Positions 450 to 33,822 of a stretch of DNA of 33,822 nucleotides are shown here, piece by piece. The notes under the pieces are model-generated. The model was given only the letters and a program-made list of their open reading frames with translations, was not told where the DNA came from and made no database searches. This DNA is from Clostridia bacterium (lineage in GTDB: Bacteria; Bacillota; Clostridia; Oscillospirales; CAG-272). The stretch covers positions 1 to 33,822 of the forward strand of contig JAFTTS010000048.1 of NCBI GenBank assembly GCA_017466685.1. The letters are read 5' to 3'. The translations under genes were made by a program, and so were the position numbers. Numbering within the stretch: the first letter of the stretch is position 1; every line of letters begins with the position of its first letter.

Positions 450-532
450 CAGCGTGAGAAATATCGTCGGAAAGGGGTATTGTGGGAAATTATGGGCTGT
501 GTGTCCTCATCCGTTGAGCCCTCTCCGTTGAA

Positions 533-780
533 CCCTCATCCGACTCGCTTCGCTCGCCACCTTCCCCCGAGGGAAGGCTTTTAGTTAGTCGAAGCCGTGG
601 ACGATGTTTTGTTGCATCAATCTAACATCCTCGCCGACGTGAGTTGGCGAAAACGAGCGATTACCACTACACGAGCGAATTGTGAGCGAAGCGAACTGAG
701 CGTGCCGAGGAGACCAACCAAGGAAGGTAAGGGGTCGAGGGGACGGGAAACTACGGCGAGAGTTGGTTCCTGTCCCCTCG
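533..780 (+). repeat. Dispersed structured repeat, copy E1 (about 248 bp)
   Basis: Begins CCCTCATCCGACTCGCTTCG and ends in the hairpin at 736-780. It aligns over its full length with the minus strand of 17924-18173 (copy E2). Shared blocks in the same order include the CGCTTCGCTCG.CACCT head, GGCTTT.AGT, a central AGCGA.CGATTAC-like block, CCAAGGA.GT, and the terminal CGAGGGGA...GGAAACT.CGGC...TGGTT hairpin. No coding potential is seen. It looks like a non-autonomous mobile or REP-like intergenic element. Confidence 0.7.
736..780 (+). repeat. 14-bp terminal hairpin of repeat E1
   Basis: CGAGGGGACGGGAA (736-749) pairs with TTCCTGTCCCCTCG (767-780) with only one G.T wobble, leaving a 17-nt loop. 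No T-run follows on the plus strand, so it is not a normal rho-independent terminator. Copy E2 has the equivalent stem at 17923-17966 with altered but still pairing bases. Confidence 0.75.
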
Positions 781-871
781 CGGCGGTATCTACAAGTCGG
801 GCGCTGAAGAAGGGACGTTCCGTTTCAAGCGTGGGAGCGATTTTATTAAGATGGGGTGCCGCTCGTTAACA

Positions 872-966
872 CCTCATCCGTCAAAGTTGTGAAGCAATCT
901 TTTACACCTATCTCCCAAAGGGTGAGGCTTTTGGTTAGCCCGAGCCGTGAACAATGTTTGCGGCAT
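872..966 (+). repeat. Partial copy E3 of the dispersed repeat
   Basis: Begins CCTCATCCGTC and continues with GGCTTTTGGTTAGCCCGAGC followed by CGTGAACAATGTTTGCGGCAT. This matches 576-617 of E1 (GGCTTTTAGTTAGTCGAAGC, then CGTGGACGATGTTTTGTTGCAT). Only the head of the element is present; the copy ends where the degV terminator begins. Confidence 0.6.
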
Positions 967-4652: not shown

Positions 4653-7600
4653 TCAGTTAACCTTAACAAATCCGAGAGCTTCAACGGTGTAAGTTTCCTC
4701 ACCGTCGACAACGGTAATCGCAAAGTTATTGTAATTAAGAATGAATGCTGTACCACCCTCGTAAGTAACCTTGACGATCTTACCGTCATCAGAGGTATAC
4801 TTAGTGTAATGGTAGGTTTCAATGACCTCTTCTTCATCGGTGCCAAGGTCAACACCGCCGGAAAGATCGCCCTCATCAATGGTTTCCTTTCCTGCGAGAG
4901 CTGCGAGACGTTCAGCGAGAAGCTTTGCTTTTTCATTCTTTTCAGCAATGAGCTTCGCCTCTTCCTCAGCGAGCTTTGCCTCTTCCTCGGCTGCAATTCT
5001 GTCTGCCTCAGCCTCTTCTGCGGTGGGAATACGCTCACCGAGAATGAATTCGTGACCGATGATCTGCTTATCCTGGAGATCTGCGAGCTCTGCATTAAGT
5101 GTGGTGTAAAGCTCGAGAACGTCCTCATGCCAGATATCAAATCCAACGGAATAATACTTGTTGAATTCCTCATCCTCTTTCAGGAGTTGAGTGTTCTGCA
5201 TGGAGAGAGTGAAGTAAAGCGACGAGCCGTTTTCGATAGCCTTAAGCAGCTCATACTTGGTGTCACCTGCCATGTTGATCGCAGTACCGGTGAAGTTCAC
5301 GCAGCCGTGGAGAACCATACCCATAAACGGAATGGATTCGCTTGCACGAGAGAAACGGCTGGAATCGAGCGGAACATTAAGGATGTGATCCGCATAAGAA
5401 AGCACATATGCGTTACCGCCCTCAGTCATAACGTTGGTGTAAGCTTCCTCGAGATTCGAGAGCATATCAACGGTGAACTCTCTGGAATCCTCGCGGTTGT
5501 ACGGATCTTTCTTATCGAAGTCGGAGTTAAGATCGGTACCGAGAGTGGAAACCGAAACGCCGTTCGGAGAAAGCTTGCTGTATTCTTCGCTGAAGTTATC
5601 GAAGAAATAATCGTAAACCGAAGGAGAAATTACGAGCGCCATACCCTTTTCGAAGGACTGAAGCGTCGAATCGTAGAAACGCTTGGAGATATAACGGTTA
5701 TCCATTGTTTTAACAAGATGCTTCTTATTGGAAACGCCGTCAAACCATCCCTTGGAGGTTACATATGCAAAGTCAAACTCGGGATATACACCGATTCCGT
5801 TCTCATTTGCATATTCAACGAACTCTGTAAATCCATCATTACCGCCGACAACCTTTTCAAATTCAACATGATAAGGATAAGCGGTGTTCATGCCGCCGTT
5901 TGCGTAACCGGTCAGCTTGAAGTTAATGTTTGTGATTCCCTCGTCTGAGAGCTTTTCATACATAGTTCTGAGATCATCGAAGGTTGTAAGAGGCTTCATA
6001 ACGTCGATCGGAATCGAGAGGAACTTCTCAATTGTATCGATCGCACCGAAGGATTCGATGTAAAGCGGAATATTCTCCTCTACATCGGTAAGCTCGGTGA
6101 GAGTGCCCTTTTCGATAAGATAATCTCTGTAAGCCTTTGCCATACCGACGTAGCTGTCTTCATAGAAGTCCTCGATGCCTGCAGCCTCAGCAGCCGCTTC
6201 ATCGGTGAGCATGATATACTTGATACGGTAGCTTCCGGTGTACTTACGCTCGGAAACAACAGTATATGTTGCAGCAGCGCCGCCGGTCATTGCGGTATCA
6301 AGCTCATATGTATCGGTAGGTCTCGGATAGAAGGTCGGATATACGGTGTTATACTTGTGTGTTGTTCCGCCGTGATCGGTACTGAGCTCAGCAAGTGAGT
6401 CGCCCTCCTCGATGATCGCAAAGAAACCGTTAGGCTGCTTATACGGAGGAATGTACGGCTTCATACCCGTTGCAAGCTCTTCTTCTGTGAGCTCCTCGGG
6501 AATGAACACATCAGATTCAAGTACGCCGTAAACCGGCATTCTCATAACTTCCTTGTTTTCGCCGGCGATCTTCTGATATGCATAGTCCTGACCGTAAACC
6601 TTACCTGTGATGGTAAGCGGCTTTGTACCAACATCCTCGAAGCGGACAAGCGCACCCGAACCGTCGGGAATGAAGGTGTAACCCTCATATTCGCTTGAAC
6701 CTGCGCCAAACCAGGGAAGCAGCTGGATATAGTTGAGCTGATATGTGGTCTCGTCGAAACGGATACCGTTTGCAGGGAGACGAACATCAAGGTTACCGTG
6801 CTCATCAAGAGTGTACTCAAGAGAGAGTCTGAAGAGTGCGGGAGCCTTGCTCTGTCCCTTATACTGAGTCATGTTGTGATCCTCTTCGAGAGTTTCGAAG
6901 GTGTACTCGGGGCAGTAGGTCTTGATAAGATCCTCAATAATAGTCTGCTCACGGTTCGGAGCTTCAGAGTCGAAGGTGTAAATTTCCATCTCAGCACAAA
7001 CCGGGAAGTTAGCGATCATGGAGTTGATCAGAGCCTCGGACTTATTGGGATTGAGAGAGTCCTGAAGCACGTAATAGGTCTTGAACTTAGCGAGTGCATT
7101 CTTTCCGTCAGACGCCTTAGCATCCTCGGGAATATTTGCGAGAATGAGCTCTTCAAAACGCGAACGCTCCATATACATCGGAAGCAGCTTACGTGTTTCG
7201 GTACGTCCCATCGCATATTCAACGCGAACACCGTTCTTGATCTTCTTAACGGTGATCTGACCGCGCAGACAAGCTTCAACGTAGCTGTTCATGGTGTTAA
7301 CTTTACCGTTATCGGTATAGTTGATCATGATCTGCGAGAGAAGCTTTTGTTTTGTGTCATTGGTTGACGTTGTGGACGCAACATCAAAGGGGTTTGAGAA
7401 AAGGATCTGACCGGTCTTGTTGTTTACGTAAGCAATTTCACCGGAAACAGGCTCAACATAGAGTGACATATCCTCTTTTTCGAGGTATTTGGTCATGGTT
7501 GCGAGCTTATCCTCGGGAGATGCGAAGACCTGCTTTACGTAATCAATAGTGGGCTTTCCCTCTTCTTCATCAAATCCGGGAACAAGCGGTTCAGCCGCAA

Positions 7601-17272: not shown

Positions 17273-17301
17273 ATTGTATACCTTTTTAGTGCACATTTCA
17301 A
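17273..17301 (-). promoter_or_regulatory. Promoter of nifS-nifU
   Basis: On the minus strand TTGAAA (17301-17296), 17-bp spacer, TACAAT (17278-17273), in the 135-bp gap between rnhA and nifS. It gives a leader of about 60 nt. Confidence 0.6.
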
Positions 17302-17339
17302 TACACAAACTACATTTTAATGTAAACATTCCGTGAACT

Positions 17340-17777
17340 CTAACGGTAAAGCTCCGCCTGACCACACGCAAGCTGATCACAACGCTCGTTATACGGATGT
17401 CCCGCATGGCCTTTAACCCAAACAAGCTTGACCTCGTGACGTGCAAGCTGTGCAAGCAATCGTTCCCACAGATCGGGGTTGAGCGCCGGGGATTTGTCGG
17501 ATTTTTTCCAGCCGTTTTTCTTCCAGCCGTAAACCCAACCTTTTTCGATAGAATCGACCATATATTTTGAATCGGACGTAAGCGTCACGTCGCAGGACTC
17601 TTTAAGTGCTTCGAGCGCACTGATCGCCGCCATAAGCTCCATGCGGTTATTAGTGGTTTGCGCTTCGCCGCCGGAAAGCTCCTTTTCGATGCCGTTATAT
17701 ACGATAACAGCACCCCAACCGCCCGGTCCGGGATTACATTTACAAGCGCCGTCGGTGTATATGTCAACGTGTTTCAT
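17340..17777 (-). CDS. rnhA: Ribonuclease HI
   Basis: 145 aa. Cleaves the RNA strand of RNA-DNA hybrids such as primers and R-loops. All four catalytic acids are visible: Asp in [20 protein letters not shown], Glu in [14 protein letters not shown], Asp in [10 protein letters not shown] and Asp in [23 protein letters not shown] matches the substrate-handling loop. I chose the ATG at 17777 because GGAGGTGA ends five bases before it; the frame opened by the GTG inside that ribosome site, three codons upstream, is not plausible. It ends with TAG. Its promoter is not clear. Confidence 0.95.
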
Positions 17778-17823
17778 CCGATTCACCTCCGTTTAACGTT
17801 GCATAATGTATTTTGCTCATTTT

Positions 17824-17851
17824 TTGGAAAAATATTGTGCTCGGGTATAAT
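17824..17851 (+). promoter_or_regulatory. Promoter-like sequence pointing into a gene-free region
   Basis: TTGGAA (17824-17829), 16-bp spacer, TATAAT (17846-17851) on the plus strand. No plus-strand gene follows before purL, which is encoded on the other strand. It could make a non-coding or antisense transcript across repeat E2, or be a chance match in AT-rich DNA. Confidence 0.3.
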
Positions 17852-17913
17852 TTTTATATTGCATATGTGAGAAAATGGAGTTTGATTTTCCCGAAGTGTG
17901 TCGCTTCGATTTT

Positions 17914-18198
17914 CGCGTAATTCGAGAGACATAGAAACCAGCTGCCGCAGTTTCCTATTCCCCTCGAGCTCCCCTTTGCACCTCCTTGGCTGCGCCCGAT
18001 TTGCGCTCAACTCCGCCTTACGGCTCCGGATTCGCTTTGTTCGCTGTAATCGTTCGCTCTGCCAGCTCCGCCGGCCTCAGATTCACCTTTTTTCGTTTTG
18101 CATCACAAAGTTACTTAAAGCCTCTCACTCTGGGAGAGGTGTCGAGCGAAGTGAGACGGAGAGGGTAAAAAGCCGCGTAATTCCCATACGCTTCGATT
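17914..18198. repeat. Short direct repeats flanking E2
   Basis: CGCGTAATTC occurs at 17914-17923 and 18174-18183, directly on either side of E2. CGCTTCGATT occurs at 17902-17911 and 18189-18198, outside it. The orders are mirrored (X-Y-element-Y-X) while each copy is in direct orientation, so this is not a simple target-site duplication, although the inner pair is positioned like one. The inner sequence recurs inverted at 22025-22034. Confidence 0.55.
17924..18173 (-). repeat. Dispersed structured repeat, copy E2 (about 250 bp)
   Basis: On the minus strand it begins near CCCTCTCCGTCTCACTTCG (18165 downwards). It continues through GGCTTTAAGTAACTTTG, AGAGCGAACGATTACAGCGA, and CAGCCAAGGAGGTGCAAAGG, and ends in a hairpin at 17966-17923. 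Order, spacing and total length match copy E1 at 533-780 on the opposite strand. The hairpin arms differ from E1 but still pair: one C-G pair became T-A and one G.T became A-T. No reading frame is conserved between the copies. Confidence 0.7.
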
Positions 18199-18214
18199 GC
18201 CACACACAAAACCA

Positions 18215-18247
18215 AGGGAGCTGCCTTTGTATGGACAAGACAGCCCC
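18215..18247 (-). terminator. Probable purL terminator
   Basis: On the minus strand GGGGCTGtCTTGT (18247-18235) pairs with ACAAAGgCAGCTCCC (18229-18215) around a short loop with small mismatches, followed by TTGGTTTTG. It is 8 bp past the purL stop. The stem is strong; the T-run is interrupted. Confidence 0.65.
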
Positions 18248-18255
18248 ATATAGTT

Positions 18256-21200
18256 TTATTTGAAATACTTAACGCCGGACTCGAAGATCTTCTGATCCTT
18301 ATCGCCCTCGATGTTTACAGCAACGTTTCTGCCGATACGCTCACTGTGTCCCATCTTACCGAGGATACGTCCGTCGGGACTGAGAATACCCTCTATAGCA
18401 TATGTCGAACCGTTCGGATTGTAACGGATATCCATAGTCGGGTTACCGTCCATATCAACGTACTGTGTCGCGATCTGACCGTTAGCCGCAAGACTTCTCA
18501 CAAGCTCCTCACTCGCCCAGAAGCGTCCCTCACCGTGAGAGATCGGAATCGAGTGGATATCGCCTGCATTTACGCCTGCAAGCCAAGGTGACTTGTTCGA
18601 TGCAATGCGTGTACGAACCATCATCGACTGGTGACGTCCGATTGCGTTGAAGGTAAGCGTCGGGCAGTCCGCGTTCATCTCGTCCATGATCTTTCCGTAA
18701 GGAAGAAGTCCCGACTTGATGAGTGCCTGGAAGCCGTTACAGATACCGAGCGCAAGACCGTCACGCTGCTCAAGCAGTCTTGTTACAGCCTCTTTAACTC
18801 TCGGATTGCGGAGTACCGCCGTGATGAATTTGCCCGATCCGTCAGGCTCGTCACCGCCGGAGAATCCGCCGGGGATCATGAGCATCTGTGCATTATCAAG
18901 AAGCGATACGAACTCGTCAACAGCATCGCCGAGTGCCTTTGCATCAAGGTTGCGGAGAACGAAAATGTCCGCGTGTGCACCTGCCTTAACGAAACGGCGC
19001 ATGGTGTCGTATTCGCAGTTTGTACCGGGGAATACGGGGATGACAACTCTCGGCTTTGCGAATGTATCTATATGATGTGCCTTTGCACGGGTGGTGCAGG
19101 TGAATGTTTCGGTGGTTTCGGGCTTAACCTCTGCCGCCTTGGTCGGGAATACCTTCTCAAGTGTATTTTCCCAAGCATCTGCAAGCTCGGTGATGGCAAC
19201 GGATGTACCGCCGATTGTGATCTTACCGTCGTCGGTGGTGTAACCGATAAGCTCTGCATCAAGCTCGTCCGCACTCTCAATGATGAATGCACCGTAGTTA
19301 AGGGCGAACAGTGTCTTTGTATCAATTCCCTCGGACTTGAAGCCGACACGGTTACCGAAGCTCATCTTCATGATACCCTCGGCAACACCGCCTGCGTCAA
19401 CAGTGTAAACAGCCTTTGCCTTGCCGCTTGCCGCGATAGCGTAAACCTTTTCAAAGAGGTCACGAAGCGACGCGAAATCGGGAAGCTTGTCCTCGTTATA
19501 CTTCGGAGCGAGGTAATAAACCTTATCGCCTGCCGACTTAAATTCGGGAGTTACGATCTTCTTTGCATCCATCGGAGCGATTGCGAAGGAAACGAGTGTC
19601 GGCGGAACGTCGATGTTCTCAAATGTACCCGACATGGAGTCCTTACCGCCGATTGCCGCGATGTTAAGTTCAAGCTGTGCCTTGAGTGAGCCGAGAAGTG
19701 CCGCCATGGGTTTACCCCAACGCTCGGGCTTGTTGTTTGTACGCTCGAAATATTCCTGGAATGTGAGGTAGATGCTCTTGTAATCGATACCTGCCGCAAC
19801 TAACTTTGCAACCGATTCAACAACAGCATAAGCCGCACCGTGATAAGGGCTCTTCTCGGAGAGGAACGGATCGTAACCGTACGCCATAACCGATGTAGTA
19901 TCTGTTTCGCCCTCGAGAACCGGAATCTTCGCCGCCATGTACTGAGGCTGTGTGAGCTGATATTTACCGCCGTAAGGCATTACGACAGTACCTGCGCCGA
20001 TCGAACTGTCAAACTTCTCAACAAGACCTCTCTGCGAGCAGATGTTGAGGTCGGAAATAAGCTCTTTGAGTGCCTTTTCGGTGTTTGCGGTATCAAGGCT
20101 TGCCGCATAACCGTCGAGCAGACCGTCCTCGTTTACGGGTGTAATTTCGATGGTTGTATGCTTCTCTGCACCGTTTGAGTTAAGGAACTCACGGGAGAGA
20201 TCGATTATATATTTGCCGTTCCAGAGCATCTTGAGACGTGCTTCCTCGGTAACCGTTGCAACAACAGTCGATTCGAGGTTTTCACGCGATGCAAATTCAC
20301 GGAACTTGTCAACGTTTTCAGCCGCAACGACAACTGCCATTCTCTCCTGCGATTCGGAGATTGCAAGCTCTGTGCCGTCAAGTCCCTCATATTTCTTCGG
20401 AACCTTTGAAAGGTCAATATCAAGACCGTCAGCAAGCTCACCGATAGCAACAGATACACCGCCTGCACCGAAGTCATTACATCTCTTGATAAGACGTGTA
20501 ACCTCGCCGTTTCTGAAAAGACGCTGGATCTTTCTTTCCTCGGGGGGATTACCCTTCTGAACCTCTGCGCCGCAGGTTGTAAGCGATTCTGCAGTGTGTG
20601 CCTTTGAAGAACCTGTCGCACCACCGCAGCCGTCACGTCCGGTCTTACCGCCAAGCAGAACGATAACGTCACCTGCCTCGGGACGCTCACGAACTACGTT
20701 ACATTCGGGAGCTGCACCGACGACCGCACCGATCTCAAGATGCTTTGCGACATAGTTGGGATGGTATAATTCATAAACAGCCCCGGTTGCAAGACCGATC
20801 TGGTTACCGTAAGACGAATAACCTGCGGAAGCACCGTGTGTGATCTTACTCTGCGGAAGCTTACCGGGCATAGTTTCCGAAACGGGCAGACGAGGATCGG
20901 CACAACCGGTCACACGCATCGCCTGGTATACATACGCACGTCCCGAAAGCGGGTCACGGATAGCACCGCCAAGACAGGTTGCCGCACCACCAAAGGGCTC
21001 GATCTCTGTGGGATGGTTGTGTGTTTCGTTCTTGAACATGAGAAGCCAATCCTGCTCCTCGCCGTCAACGTCAACCTTTATCTTGATCGAGCAAGCGTTG
21101 ATCTCCTCGGATTCGTCCATGTTCTTAAGTACACCGCGTTTTTTGAGATATTTAGCCGCGATCGTACCCATGTCCATGAGGGAGATATTCTTCTTGCGCT

Positions 21201-21978: not shown

Positions 21979-22023
21979 ATTGCGACTCCTTTTTATTTAT
22001 AAGTGTAAATGATTTCGTGTATA

Positions 22024-22038
22024 GGAATTACGCGGCTT
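22024..22038 (+). repeat. 15-bp sequence repeated in inverted orientation at the other end of purL
   Basis: GGAATTACGCGGCTT here is identical to the reverse complement of 18170-18184, so perfect 15-bp inverted copies bracket purL. Its core also flanks repeat E2. It lies in the 69-bp gap between mtaB and purL. Confidence 0.6.
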
Positions 22039-22047
22039 GTTATTCAA

Positions 22048-28043: not shown

Positions 28044-28081
28044 AAAACACCGAGTCCATCAAAATACGGTTGGACTCGGTG
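28044..28081 (-). terminator. Strong terminator of the Asn/Gln-rich small gene
   Basis: CACCGAGTCCA (28048-28058) and TGGACTCGGTG (28071-28081) are perfect 11-bp arms. On the minus strand six T residues follow. It may also end ispD transcription from the other side. Confidence 0.85.
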
Positions 28082-28089
28082 ATGTTCAT

Positions 28090-28245
28090 TTAGCGGTCTG
28101 CCTTGTTGTTGTTTTCGTTGTTTGTCTTATTCTGATTCTGATTGGTGGTCTTAACGTTCTTGGTGCTGTCCTTGCAGTTCTGATTCTGATTTGTCTTGTT
28201 CTGATTCTGGTTCTGACTCTGATTCTGGTTTCTCTCGTTATTCAC
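28090..28245 (-). CDS. Small Asn/Gln-rich protein, GTG start
   Basis: 51 aa. I chose the GTG at 28245 because AAGGAG lies exactly eight bases before it; a longer frame from an ATG at 28299 has no such signal. The protein is almost entirely Asn, Gln, Lys and Thr: NERNQNQSQNQNQNKTNQNQ, a single Cys, then TNQNQNKTNNENNNKADR. It has no hydrophobic core and must be disordered. A ribosome site and an 11-bp-stem terminator show a real gene unit. Function unknown. Its make-up recalls gamma-type spore proteins, which serve as amino-acid stores, and spoIIE shows this is a sporulator, but there is no sequence match to claim that. Confidence 0.7.
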   Translation of the reverse strand: MNNERNQNQSQNQNQNKTNQNQNCKDSTKNVKTTNQNQNKTNNENNNKADR

Positions 28246-28433: not shown

Positions 28434-29486
28434 ATGGCAATCGTAACAATAATCGGCGCGGGAATGATGGGCTCGGCACTTGCTTTCCCGGCAAGAGAAA
28501 ACGGAAACGAGGTGCGTCTCGTCGGCTCACCGCTCGACCGCGATATCATCGAAAACTGCATAAAAACCAACACACATCTCAAGCATACAAAGCCCTTCCC
28601 TGCAGGCGTAAAATACTACCAAATCGAGGACGTTGACGCAGCAATCGAAGGCTCTGATATGATAATCGGCGGCGTTTCAAGCTTCGGCGTTGACTGGTTC
28701 GGCGATTTCGTTCTGCCGAAAATCCCCGAAGCAACTCCGATACTCACCGTCACCAAAGGTCTCATGGACACCGAAAACGGCGAGCTTTTAACCTACCCCG
28801 AAATATGGCGCAGAAAAGCCGAAAAGCTCGGCAAAAAGTATTCCCTCAACGCCATCGGCGGCCCTTGCACGAGCTATGAGCTTGTCGCACACGACCAGAC
28901 CGAGGTTGCATTCTGCGGCGATGATATGGAAACCCTGAAAAAGCTTAAAAAGATAATGGCGACCGACTATTATCACATCAGCCTTTCCACAGACGTTATC
29001 GGAATCGAAAGCGCAGTCGCACTCAAAAACGGTTACGCACTCGGAGTTGCGCTGACGATCGGCGTCAATCAAAAGAACTTCGGAATAGACAGTGAGCTGC
29101 ACTTTAACTCACAGGCAGCGATCTTCGGTCAGGCAGTTAAGGAAATGTACGCACTGCTCGATTACCAAGGTGCGGCAACGATTGAAAATATGTCCGTCGG
29201 TTACGGCGATCTTTACGTCACCGTTTACGGCGGAAGAACCCGACTCGCAGGTATCCTTCTCGGACGCGGACTTAACATCGACGAGGTTAAAGAAGAACTC
29301 AACGGCGTAACGCTCGAATCGCTCGTCGTTGCCGAAAGAGTGGCACGTGCAGTACGTATCGCCGCATCAAACGGCAAGCTCAACACAGATGATTTTCCGC
29401 TTCTCTGCCACGTAGACGACATCGTAAAGAAAAAAGTCGCAGTAAACATCCCGTGGGAAGATTTTACGTTCAACTACCAAAAATAA
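28434..29486 (+). CDS. NAD(P)-dependent glycerol-3-phosphate dehydrogenase family protein
   Basis: 350 aa, full length. The Rossmann motif is VTIIGAGMMGSALA at residues 4-17. Family landmarks follow: ILTVTKGLMD, AIGGPCTSYELV, the catalytic lysine region ESAVALKNGYALGVAL near 195, and GDLYVTVYGGRTRLAG in the substrate domain. GpsA makes sn-glycerol-3-phosphate for phospholipids. Some motifs deviate from textbook GpsA (GPCTSYELV instead of GPSFA.E, LKNGYALG instead of LKN..AI..G), so this may be a paralogue with another sugar-phosphate substrate; I leave the symbol blank. A single-gene unit with its own consensus promoter, GGAG ribosome site and terminator. Confidence 0.82.
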   Translation: MAIVTIIGAGMMGSALAFPARENGNEVRLVGSPLDRDIIENCIKTNTHLKHTKPFPAGVKYYQIEDVDAAIEGSDMIIGGVSSFGVDWFGDFVLPKIPEATPILTVTKGLMDTENGELLTYPEIWRRKAEKLGKKYSLNAIGGPCTSYELVAHDQTEVAFCGDDMETLKKLKKIMATDYYHISLSTDVIGIESAVALKNGYALGVALTIGVNQKNFGIDSELHFNSQAAIFGQAVKEMYALLDYQGAATIENMSVGYGDLYVTVYGGRTRLAGILLGRGLNIDEVKEELNGVTLESLVVAERVARAVRIAASNGKLNTDDFPLLCHVDDIVKKKVAVNIPWEDFTFNYQK

Positions 29487-33667: not shown

Positions 33668-33785
33668 AATTTTCCGTCACCAATTTTGACGAATCAGATA
33701 TATTTTTGTTCCGTGTATGAGATAAAATTATCAAAGCAAGGGCACGAAAAGTGGATCCAACTGCGAAGTTACTCTCTCCGTAAAA

Positions 33786-33822
33786 CCCTCTCCGGCTCGC
33801 TGCGCTCGCCACCTCTCCCAAA
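33786..33822 (+). repeat. Start of another copy of the dispersed repeat (cut by window end)
   Basis: CCCTCTCCGGCTCGCTGCGC and TCGCCACCTCTCCCA match the head of E2 (CCCTCTCCGTCTCACTTCG, CTCGACACCTCTCCCA) and of E1. A CTCTCCGTAAAA stretch just before it echoes the short direct repeats before E1. The rest lies beyond the window. Confidence 0.65.

Follow-up and report, generated by a model that had tools for sequence, protein, structure and literature searches.

The E1 and E2 repeats of a Clostridia contig are mosaic copies of a hairpin-rich modular repeat family

The BOX repeats of Streptococcus pneumoniae consist of boxA, a variable boxB and boxC, extend up to several hundred bp, are folded and occur in many copies; another element treated in the available sections of the same paper is enriched near the 3' ends of convergent genes (PMC3049150). 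CGTC REPs, like the repeats discussed here, are described without a dedicated transposase, and the words "Firmicutes" and "Clostridi-" do not appear in the portion of that paper's text at hand (PMC3733652). For rhizobia, the accessible part of another study names RIME and the AB and C palindromes (PMC2573895).

Here we focus on two intergenic repeats, E1 and E2, of a Clostridia bacterium. The window, i.e., the whole stretch of DNA analysed, is a complete contig (C38, 33,822 bp) of a 2.32 Mb draft genome in 148 contigs that is 89% complete, and its last repeat copy (33783-33822) is incomplete, the contig breaking off inside the repeat. The first-pass annotation had described a single dispersed element of about 250 bp with partial copies at 872-966 and 33786-33822. 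Instead, E1 and E2 are mosaic copies of a hairpin-rich modular repeat family. Its parts in the window are given below, where R1 denotes a covariance model of arm A that was built from the arms of other genomes.

530-584, plus strand: arm module A of E1, R type, with CCTCATCCG, hairpin 1, the CACCTTC..GAAGGC hairpin 2 and a T run (R1, 53.9 bits, E 4.8e-13).
585-672, plus strand: modules B and C1 of E1, a GTTAG..CTAAC spacer and the CGCCGACGTGAGTTGGCG inverted repeat, read from the sequence and common to other copies.
674-780, plus strand: module D of E1, subtype D1 (nhmmer D profile, 49.8 bits).
735-781, plus strand: terminal hairpin of E1 with one flanking base per side, an 18-pair helix in alignment A4 (fold -28.9 kcal/mol, z -4.99; A4 covariation).
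868-934, plus strand: partial copy, a variant A arm with a longer hairpin 1 (AAAGTTGTGAAGCAATCTTTT), the variant having further copies in the genome (R1, 26.4 bits, E 9.9e-6).
18114-18168, minus strand: arm module A of E2, R type, CTCTCC variant (R1, 30.9 bits, E 6.6e-7).
17893-18037, minus strand: module D of E2, subtype D2, including the tail ATTACGCGAAAATCGAAGCG (nhmmer D profile, 101.9 bits).
17922-17967, minus strand: terminal hairpin of E2 with one flanking base per side (fold -20.0 kcal/mol, z -4.27; a row of A4).
33783-33822, plus strand: partial A arm, R type, 3' side cut by the contig end (R1, 21.5 bits, E 2.1e-4).

In a global alignment, E1 (533-780, plus strand) and E2 (18173-17923, minus strand) are identical in 174 of 288 columns. 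The score of 161.3 compares with 34.6 +/- 11.1 in 500 dinucleotide shuffles (z 11.4), which bears out the ordered blocks that had been noticed in both. This likeness is patchy: E2 is absent among the 59 BLAST matches that E1 as query gives in the source genome, and E1 and E2 therefore represent two subtypes. The two partial copies were recovered as matches to the arm model, at 868-934 (E 9.9e-6) and 33783-33822 (E 2.1e-4). Gene calls also agree with an intergenic placement in the window, with E1 between a DegV-family gene and another minus-strand gene, E2 between purL and rnhA, and the contig-end copy behind a gene for a methyltransferase; the ORFs that overlap E1 and E2 are all small. Truncated arm starts (CCTCATCCGTTGAG, CCCTCTCCGTTGAA, CCCTCATCCGAC) are repeated upstream of the complete E1 arm (window 505-545), in a pattern similar to that at locus L082, and these could mark successive insertions at one spot. 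Two further repeats of the window are a 24-bp inverted pair (92%) around purL (18166-18189 and 22019-22042), which resembles the D tail (GGAATTACGCGGCTT), and direct repeats of the CTGATTCTG type at 28077-28230, within low-complexity sequence that precedes the ORF at 28434.

Further copies are numerous. In the source genome, BLAST returned 59 matches for E1, 70 for a second full copy (L013), 48 for the E1 region and 61 for the E2 region (window 17300-19300), where all matches but the window's own fall within the E2 part. Arm and D matches were grouped into 58 clusters in 50 profiled sources of this genome, which had been picked because matches lay in them. Four modules make up these copies. 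Module A comprises CCCTCATCCG, hairpin 1, CACC, hairpin 2 and TTT; module B is a short palindromic spacer running from GTTAG to CTAAC; module C has two versions; and module D holds the terminal hairpin and a tail. Their usual order is A-B-C-D, often followed by another A. E1 has the C1/D1 combination, as do about four close copies of 81-87% identity, and E2 has D2, the common D subtype. At module borders lies ATCTAAC/GTTAGAT, a motif that may read as integron attC-like.

Larger forms consist of opposed halves. In ten copies, which align over about 560 bp, two opposed C-D halves flank a centre with AAAAGTnACTTTT, and five A-A pairs of 117-173 bp are found among the loci read in the source genome. 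Both of these forms are short, non-coding and bounded by terminal inverted repeats, as MITEs are. An A-A element of about 200 bp is common to loci of five genomes from five genera, at unrelated sites. One uniform 250-bp unit is rejected, as the E1 query misses E2 and module A differs in distribution from the C-D half; in its place stands a mosaic of modules with very different distributions.

Folded as RNA, the terminal hairpins reach -28.9 kcal/mol in E1 and -20.0 kcal/mol in E2 (z -5.0 and -4.3); E2 as a whole folds no better than its shuffles (z 0.81). The hairpins had been said to stay paired despite base changes, and this could be followed in alignment A4, made by MAFFT with structure ignored, of 42 distinct D-hairpin sequences, all from one genome and hence not independent. 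Its rows exclude L090:635-678, which lies outside the repeats, and L081:594-637, where an arm breaks the hairpin, and include seven others that were added. Cells are paired in 89.7% of cases, and double changes occur in 12 of the 18 pairs, amounting to 86 cells against 24.3 +/- 6.2 in shuffles. The covariation score is 0.375 against 0.214 in shuffles, with none of 500 shuffles as high, and slid partners give 0.125-0.182. The C-G to T-A double change noticed between the two hairpins is real and recurs, with column 11 of A4 reading UA in 15 rows, CG in 10, UG in 10 and other combinations in 7. The D hairpins of L093, L083, L095, L444 and L448 have a similar mini-palindrome of about 22 nt inserted (CACTCGCC..GGCGATGTGTT).

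Hairpin 1 of the arm was assessed in the same manner. The 281 arm matches contain 194 distinct hairpin-1 cores, and 219 matches are fully paired down to a loop of 3-4 nt. Thirty equal-length rows of these matches, from GTDB and IMG/VR loci (alignment A1), have 36 double-change cells against 13.6, with a score of 0.192 against 0.055 and slid partners at no more than 0.036. In these larger alignments covariation is strong both in the D hairpin and in hairpin 1, with counts that are inflated by the kinship of the rows. Thus neither outcome named in the first-pass annotation as refuting its reading, a lack of further full copies or of covariation in more sequences, came about. Hairpin 2 is invariant in the 30-row set, in part an effect of the search pattern and of how rows were selected. 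Across loci L133 to L372, whether CCTCATCCG is preceded by C or A tends to correlate with the loop base that comes first after CCTTCCCC (C or T/A/G), CA going with TC in 89 and CC with CC in 22 of the 281 matches.

The arms themselves fall into types. When three of their positions may vary (CCTCATCx, CAyCTTC and GAAGzC), 368 of 417 arms read CCG, which we call R, and 43 read AGC, which we call L. Setting aside arms that fit the R-type selection pattern leaves 139, with CCG in 90, AGC in 43, TCG in 5 and CTA in 1, and no simple recombinant; the 53 CTC variant arms comprise 27 R and 20 L, with a few recombinants. Position y pairs with z and x is unpaired, so the y-z pair does not explain the link of x with the other two. 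A third type, S, reads CCTCATCCAC..GTCCCCCTTC. Close inverted arm pairs (n=103) divide into 55 LR, 15 RS, 2 LS, 30 RR and 1 LL, and direct neighbours (n=34), which serve as the control, into 26 RR, 5 LR, 2 LL and 1 RS. Mixed types thus make up 72 of 103 inverted pairs against 6 of 34 direct ones (Fisher p 1.7e-7), which ties them to inverted pairs, even in loci partly picked by the R-type pattern, where R is over-counted. In an L-R pair, we infer, the two arms would mismatch at exactly the three linked places. This linked L/R code, held across a wide taxonomic distance, is the novel part of the family.

Template switching can mimic compensatory change in palindromes, and the repeats could in principle be a by-product of DNA processes. 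Template switching would then perfect quasi-palindromes, and unequal recombination and gene conversion would spread the copies, with neither selection on an RNA nor a dedicated enzyme. The stems and loops of hairpin 1, which vary freely yet stay perfect, fit such an origin, as do the A-A pairs of genome G035, which are similar to those above and stand in near-identical tandem arrays of about 195 bp. However, template switching accounts neither for copies at unrelated sites nor for what many genera have conserved, namely non-stem bases (CCTCATC, CA.CTTC) and the link of the unpaired base with the hairpin-2 pair. We consider this origin quite unlikely.

Searches with R1 found arm A in 36 of 59 genomes from the family of the source species, where scored copies range from 0 to 95 per genome, and in 5 of 299 genomes of a phylum sample (E 1e-6, 18 candidates scored per genome), of which four belong to one family outside the class and the fifth is the source genome. 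The arm pattern occurs in at least 120 stretches in GTDB and at least 120 in IMG/VR. Among the GTDB matches listed, titles name Clostridia, Oscillospiraceae, Lachnospiraceae, Ruminococcus, Gemmiger, Pseudoflavonifractor, Butyrivibrio, Selenomonas and at least three Bifidobacterium, which bears out the first-pass mention of similar repeats in gut Clostridia. Five Bifidobacterium arms score 59-70 bits with R1 and a sixth 34. Beside arms on viral contigs, several ORFs (of 82 picked by size from at least 148) match terminase, portal and capsid families, so some arms sit in phage genomes. Arm-like pairs also match at least in part 167 of 72,556 plasmid records, mostly of Rhizobium and Sinorhizobium, where R1 gives lower scores, with a maximum of 33.5 bits over two loci tested; these plasmid arms likely share ancestry with arm A.

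In contrast, the C-D half and its inverted repeats of about 560 bp appear so far only in the source species. The L013 query had no match in five other genomes of the genus except for its last, A-type part in one, the family sample outside the source genome gave matches to the A part only, and the exact D pattern had 0 matches in GTDB and IMG/VR, where the source record itself may be left out. Rfam, which had been proposed as a check, has no family that matches the repeats: the window gave 0 matches above the gathering threshold, with 400-1030 below threshold only, and ten repeat loci at E 1 gave no repeat family, with two weak sub-threshold matches besides Gut-1 and tRNA. The Gut-1 match, above threshold at 6482-6559 of L395 (G035), stands beside a tRNA within 6370-6670, away from the arrays of that locus. 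For the arm strings, the matches listed from an open-access subset of the literature fit the shortest string only, in unrelated papers.

Where both neighbours of a cluster were called in the source genome (43 of 58), 27 sites are tandem, 13 convergent and 3 divergent, an excess of convergent over divergent sites (two-sided p 0.021). The GTDB loci comprise 53 tandem, 21 convergent and 11 divergent sites (85 assessed of 142), and the IMG/VR loci 41, 18 and 13 (72 of 139). Arm matches overlap an ORF of at least 80 aa, by crude calls, in 57 of 142 GTDB and 84 of 139 IMG/VR loci, which either speaks against a strictly intergenic place outside the source genome or stems from ORFs that are spurious, the DNA being GC-rich. 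Terminator-like hairpins stand near many copies, as seen without a matched control, and targeted insertion behind terminators is therefore not claimed. Many arms have hairpin 2 followed by T.

Such positions raise the question of whether the repeats are a structured RNA family, with a role at the transcript level (for instance in forming 3' ends, insulating genes from one another or protecting against nucleases) that made them useful behind genes, so that they multiplied. Stem covariation would be expected of such a family, and the 13 to 3 ratio of convergent to divergent sites, hairpin 2 with its T run, and the 16 of 58 clusters that have the T run of a facing terminator-like hairpin no more than 50 nt away (again without a matched control) point the same way. 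However, copy number is very uneven between related genomes, and arms lie in both orientations to tandem GTDB genes (32 opposite and 21 same, of 53). The composite and inverted-repeat forms, the result from Rfam and the unremarkable stability of E2 as a whole also argue against it, and we regard a structured RNA family as unlikely.

Relatives were searched for empty sites. From 12 queried loci, the three with both flanks side by side in congeners were aligned. The flanking genes of L010 are adjacent and lack the insert in G003, G002 and G004, those of L094 in G003 and G002, and those of L442 in G004 and G001; divergence of the intergenic DNA blocks an exact junction at all three. The comparison with relatives that had been suggested thus places the insert as absent at three syntenic sites, an absence that could alternatively reflect loss or divergence of intergenic DNA. 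At the E2 site, rnhA and purL stand about 2.6 kb apart in G003, G004 and G001 (L438, L439 and L440), where the source genome has E2 alone. In G003 this stretch holds two ORFs, one with sigma-70 region 4, and for one of these ORFs the source genome, an 89% complete draft searched without a positive control, gave no match. The E1 locus has no match in five congeners.

A target-site duplication was sought at 15 copies, whose ends are uncertain by a few bases: summed direct matches are 21, against 26.3 for re-paired flanks, and 1694 of 2000 shuffles equal or exceed the observed value. On this ground the repeats are not MITEs in the strict sense. Autonomous copies between inverted arms were likewise not recognised: the 25 Pfam families listed (of 63) for the 72 ORFs that such arms enclose, at spacings of 600-4000 bp, include no transposase. 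REPIN-type elements are moved by RAYT, a Y1 HUH transposase, and the inverted pairs of short palindromes (103 close inverted against 34 direct), the positions downstream of genes and a general anatomy like that of REP dimers, as far as the available part of PMC3733652 describes them, would suit such an enzyme. Yet the Y1 transposase domain PF01797, which exceeds the cut-off in 7 of 20 genomes, has 0 matches in the 89% complete source genome and is missing from the copy-rich G033, G035, G092, G120 and G064, and the GTAG tag is not seen. Membership in RAYT-REP is rejected for the source genome on the enzyme, and movement by RAYT is highly improbable.

The first-pass annotation had left the choice between a mobile element and a structured RNA. 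Mobility is favoured by the unrelated sites, the inverted repeats and the three empty sites, and weighed down by the lack of target-site duplications and of an enzyme in the searches above. E1 and E2 are probably composite, non-coding hairpin-DNA repeats of a REPIN/BOX/RIME-like kind, non-autonomous but mobile through an enzyme acting in trans, and tolerated downstream of genes. The basic units would be half-elements, namely arm A with its two tandem hairpins and C-D with its terminal hairpin, and a full element would comprise two opposed halves, A-A of about 120-200 bp or C-D/D-C of about 560 bp. On this view, mosaics such as E1 and E2, like the halves that stand alone, would have arisen by nested insertion or be what is left of full elements. 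An enzyme from elsewhere would recognise the folded single strand, take L and R as its two ends and move the element, and copies would survive mainly between or after genes. In a transcript running in the A direction, hairpin 2 and T would resemble an intrinsic terminator, and a mild effect of the copies on read-through is likely by this resemblance. More tentatively, and on balance doubtfully, arm A may be the end of one ancient or horizontally spread family in Clostridia, Negativicutes, Bifidobacterium, rhizobia and gut/rumen phages, with CCG and AGC end types and a trans enzyme, of a class not yet linked to it, on folded single strands; such an enzyme would account both for the lack of target-site duplications and for arms in phages.

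The repeats are common in the genomes of gut Firmicutes (36 of 59 in one family), carry no Rfam name and break assemblies, as at the end of the source contig. A fixed L/R code amounts to a defined end pair, with which the mobilisation of transposase-less palindromic repeats becomes testable with candidate enzymes. Mobile repeats of this kind would form a large class of selfish hairpins, with phages among their carriers; functional ones would be a 3'-end element of wide occurrence.

By their make-up, these repeats would be grouped with modular or paired palindromic repeats such as BOX, REP dimers and rhizobial palindromes. Set beside BOX by description only, they are likewise modular, strongly folded and multicopy; unlike BOX, which is reported with target-site duplications, none were found for them (PMC3049150, available sections). 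With SPRITE of S. pneumoniae they have in common a terminator-like hairpin and a T-rich tract, but SPRITE is AT-rich with a single 18-bp duplex, whereas these are GC-rich double hairpins in L/R arm pairs (same sections of PMC3049150). Bacterial MITEs, in the accessible part of PMC10969869, are under 600 bp, non-coding and multicopy with inverted repeats, as are the repeats here; unlike MITEs, the latter have no target-site duplication and no related transposase ends in the families listed. A CGTC REP is recognised by a CGTC tag beside a stem of 8-9 bp that opens with two A-T pairs, according to PMC3733652, and was rejected as a candidate since hairpin 2 has C-G at pairs 1 and 2 in 30 of 30 A1 rows; pair 2 of hairpin 1 is also C-G in 30 of 30, the bases in both hairpins being partly fixed by the search pattern. 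Like the CGTC and GTAG superfamilies of the same text, these repeats are short palindromes downstream of genes that form inverted dimers, often heterodimers, and unlike them, arm A has two tandem hairpins and no GTAG tag. Finally, Rhizobium, Sinorhizobium and related plasmids carry A-like arms and L/R-like inverted pairs, which may be likened, by description only, to the rhizobial RIME and AB and C palindromes in the available part of PMC2573895.
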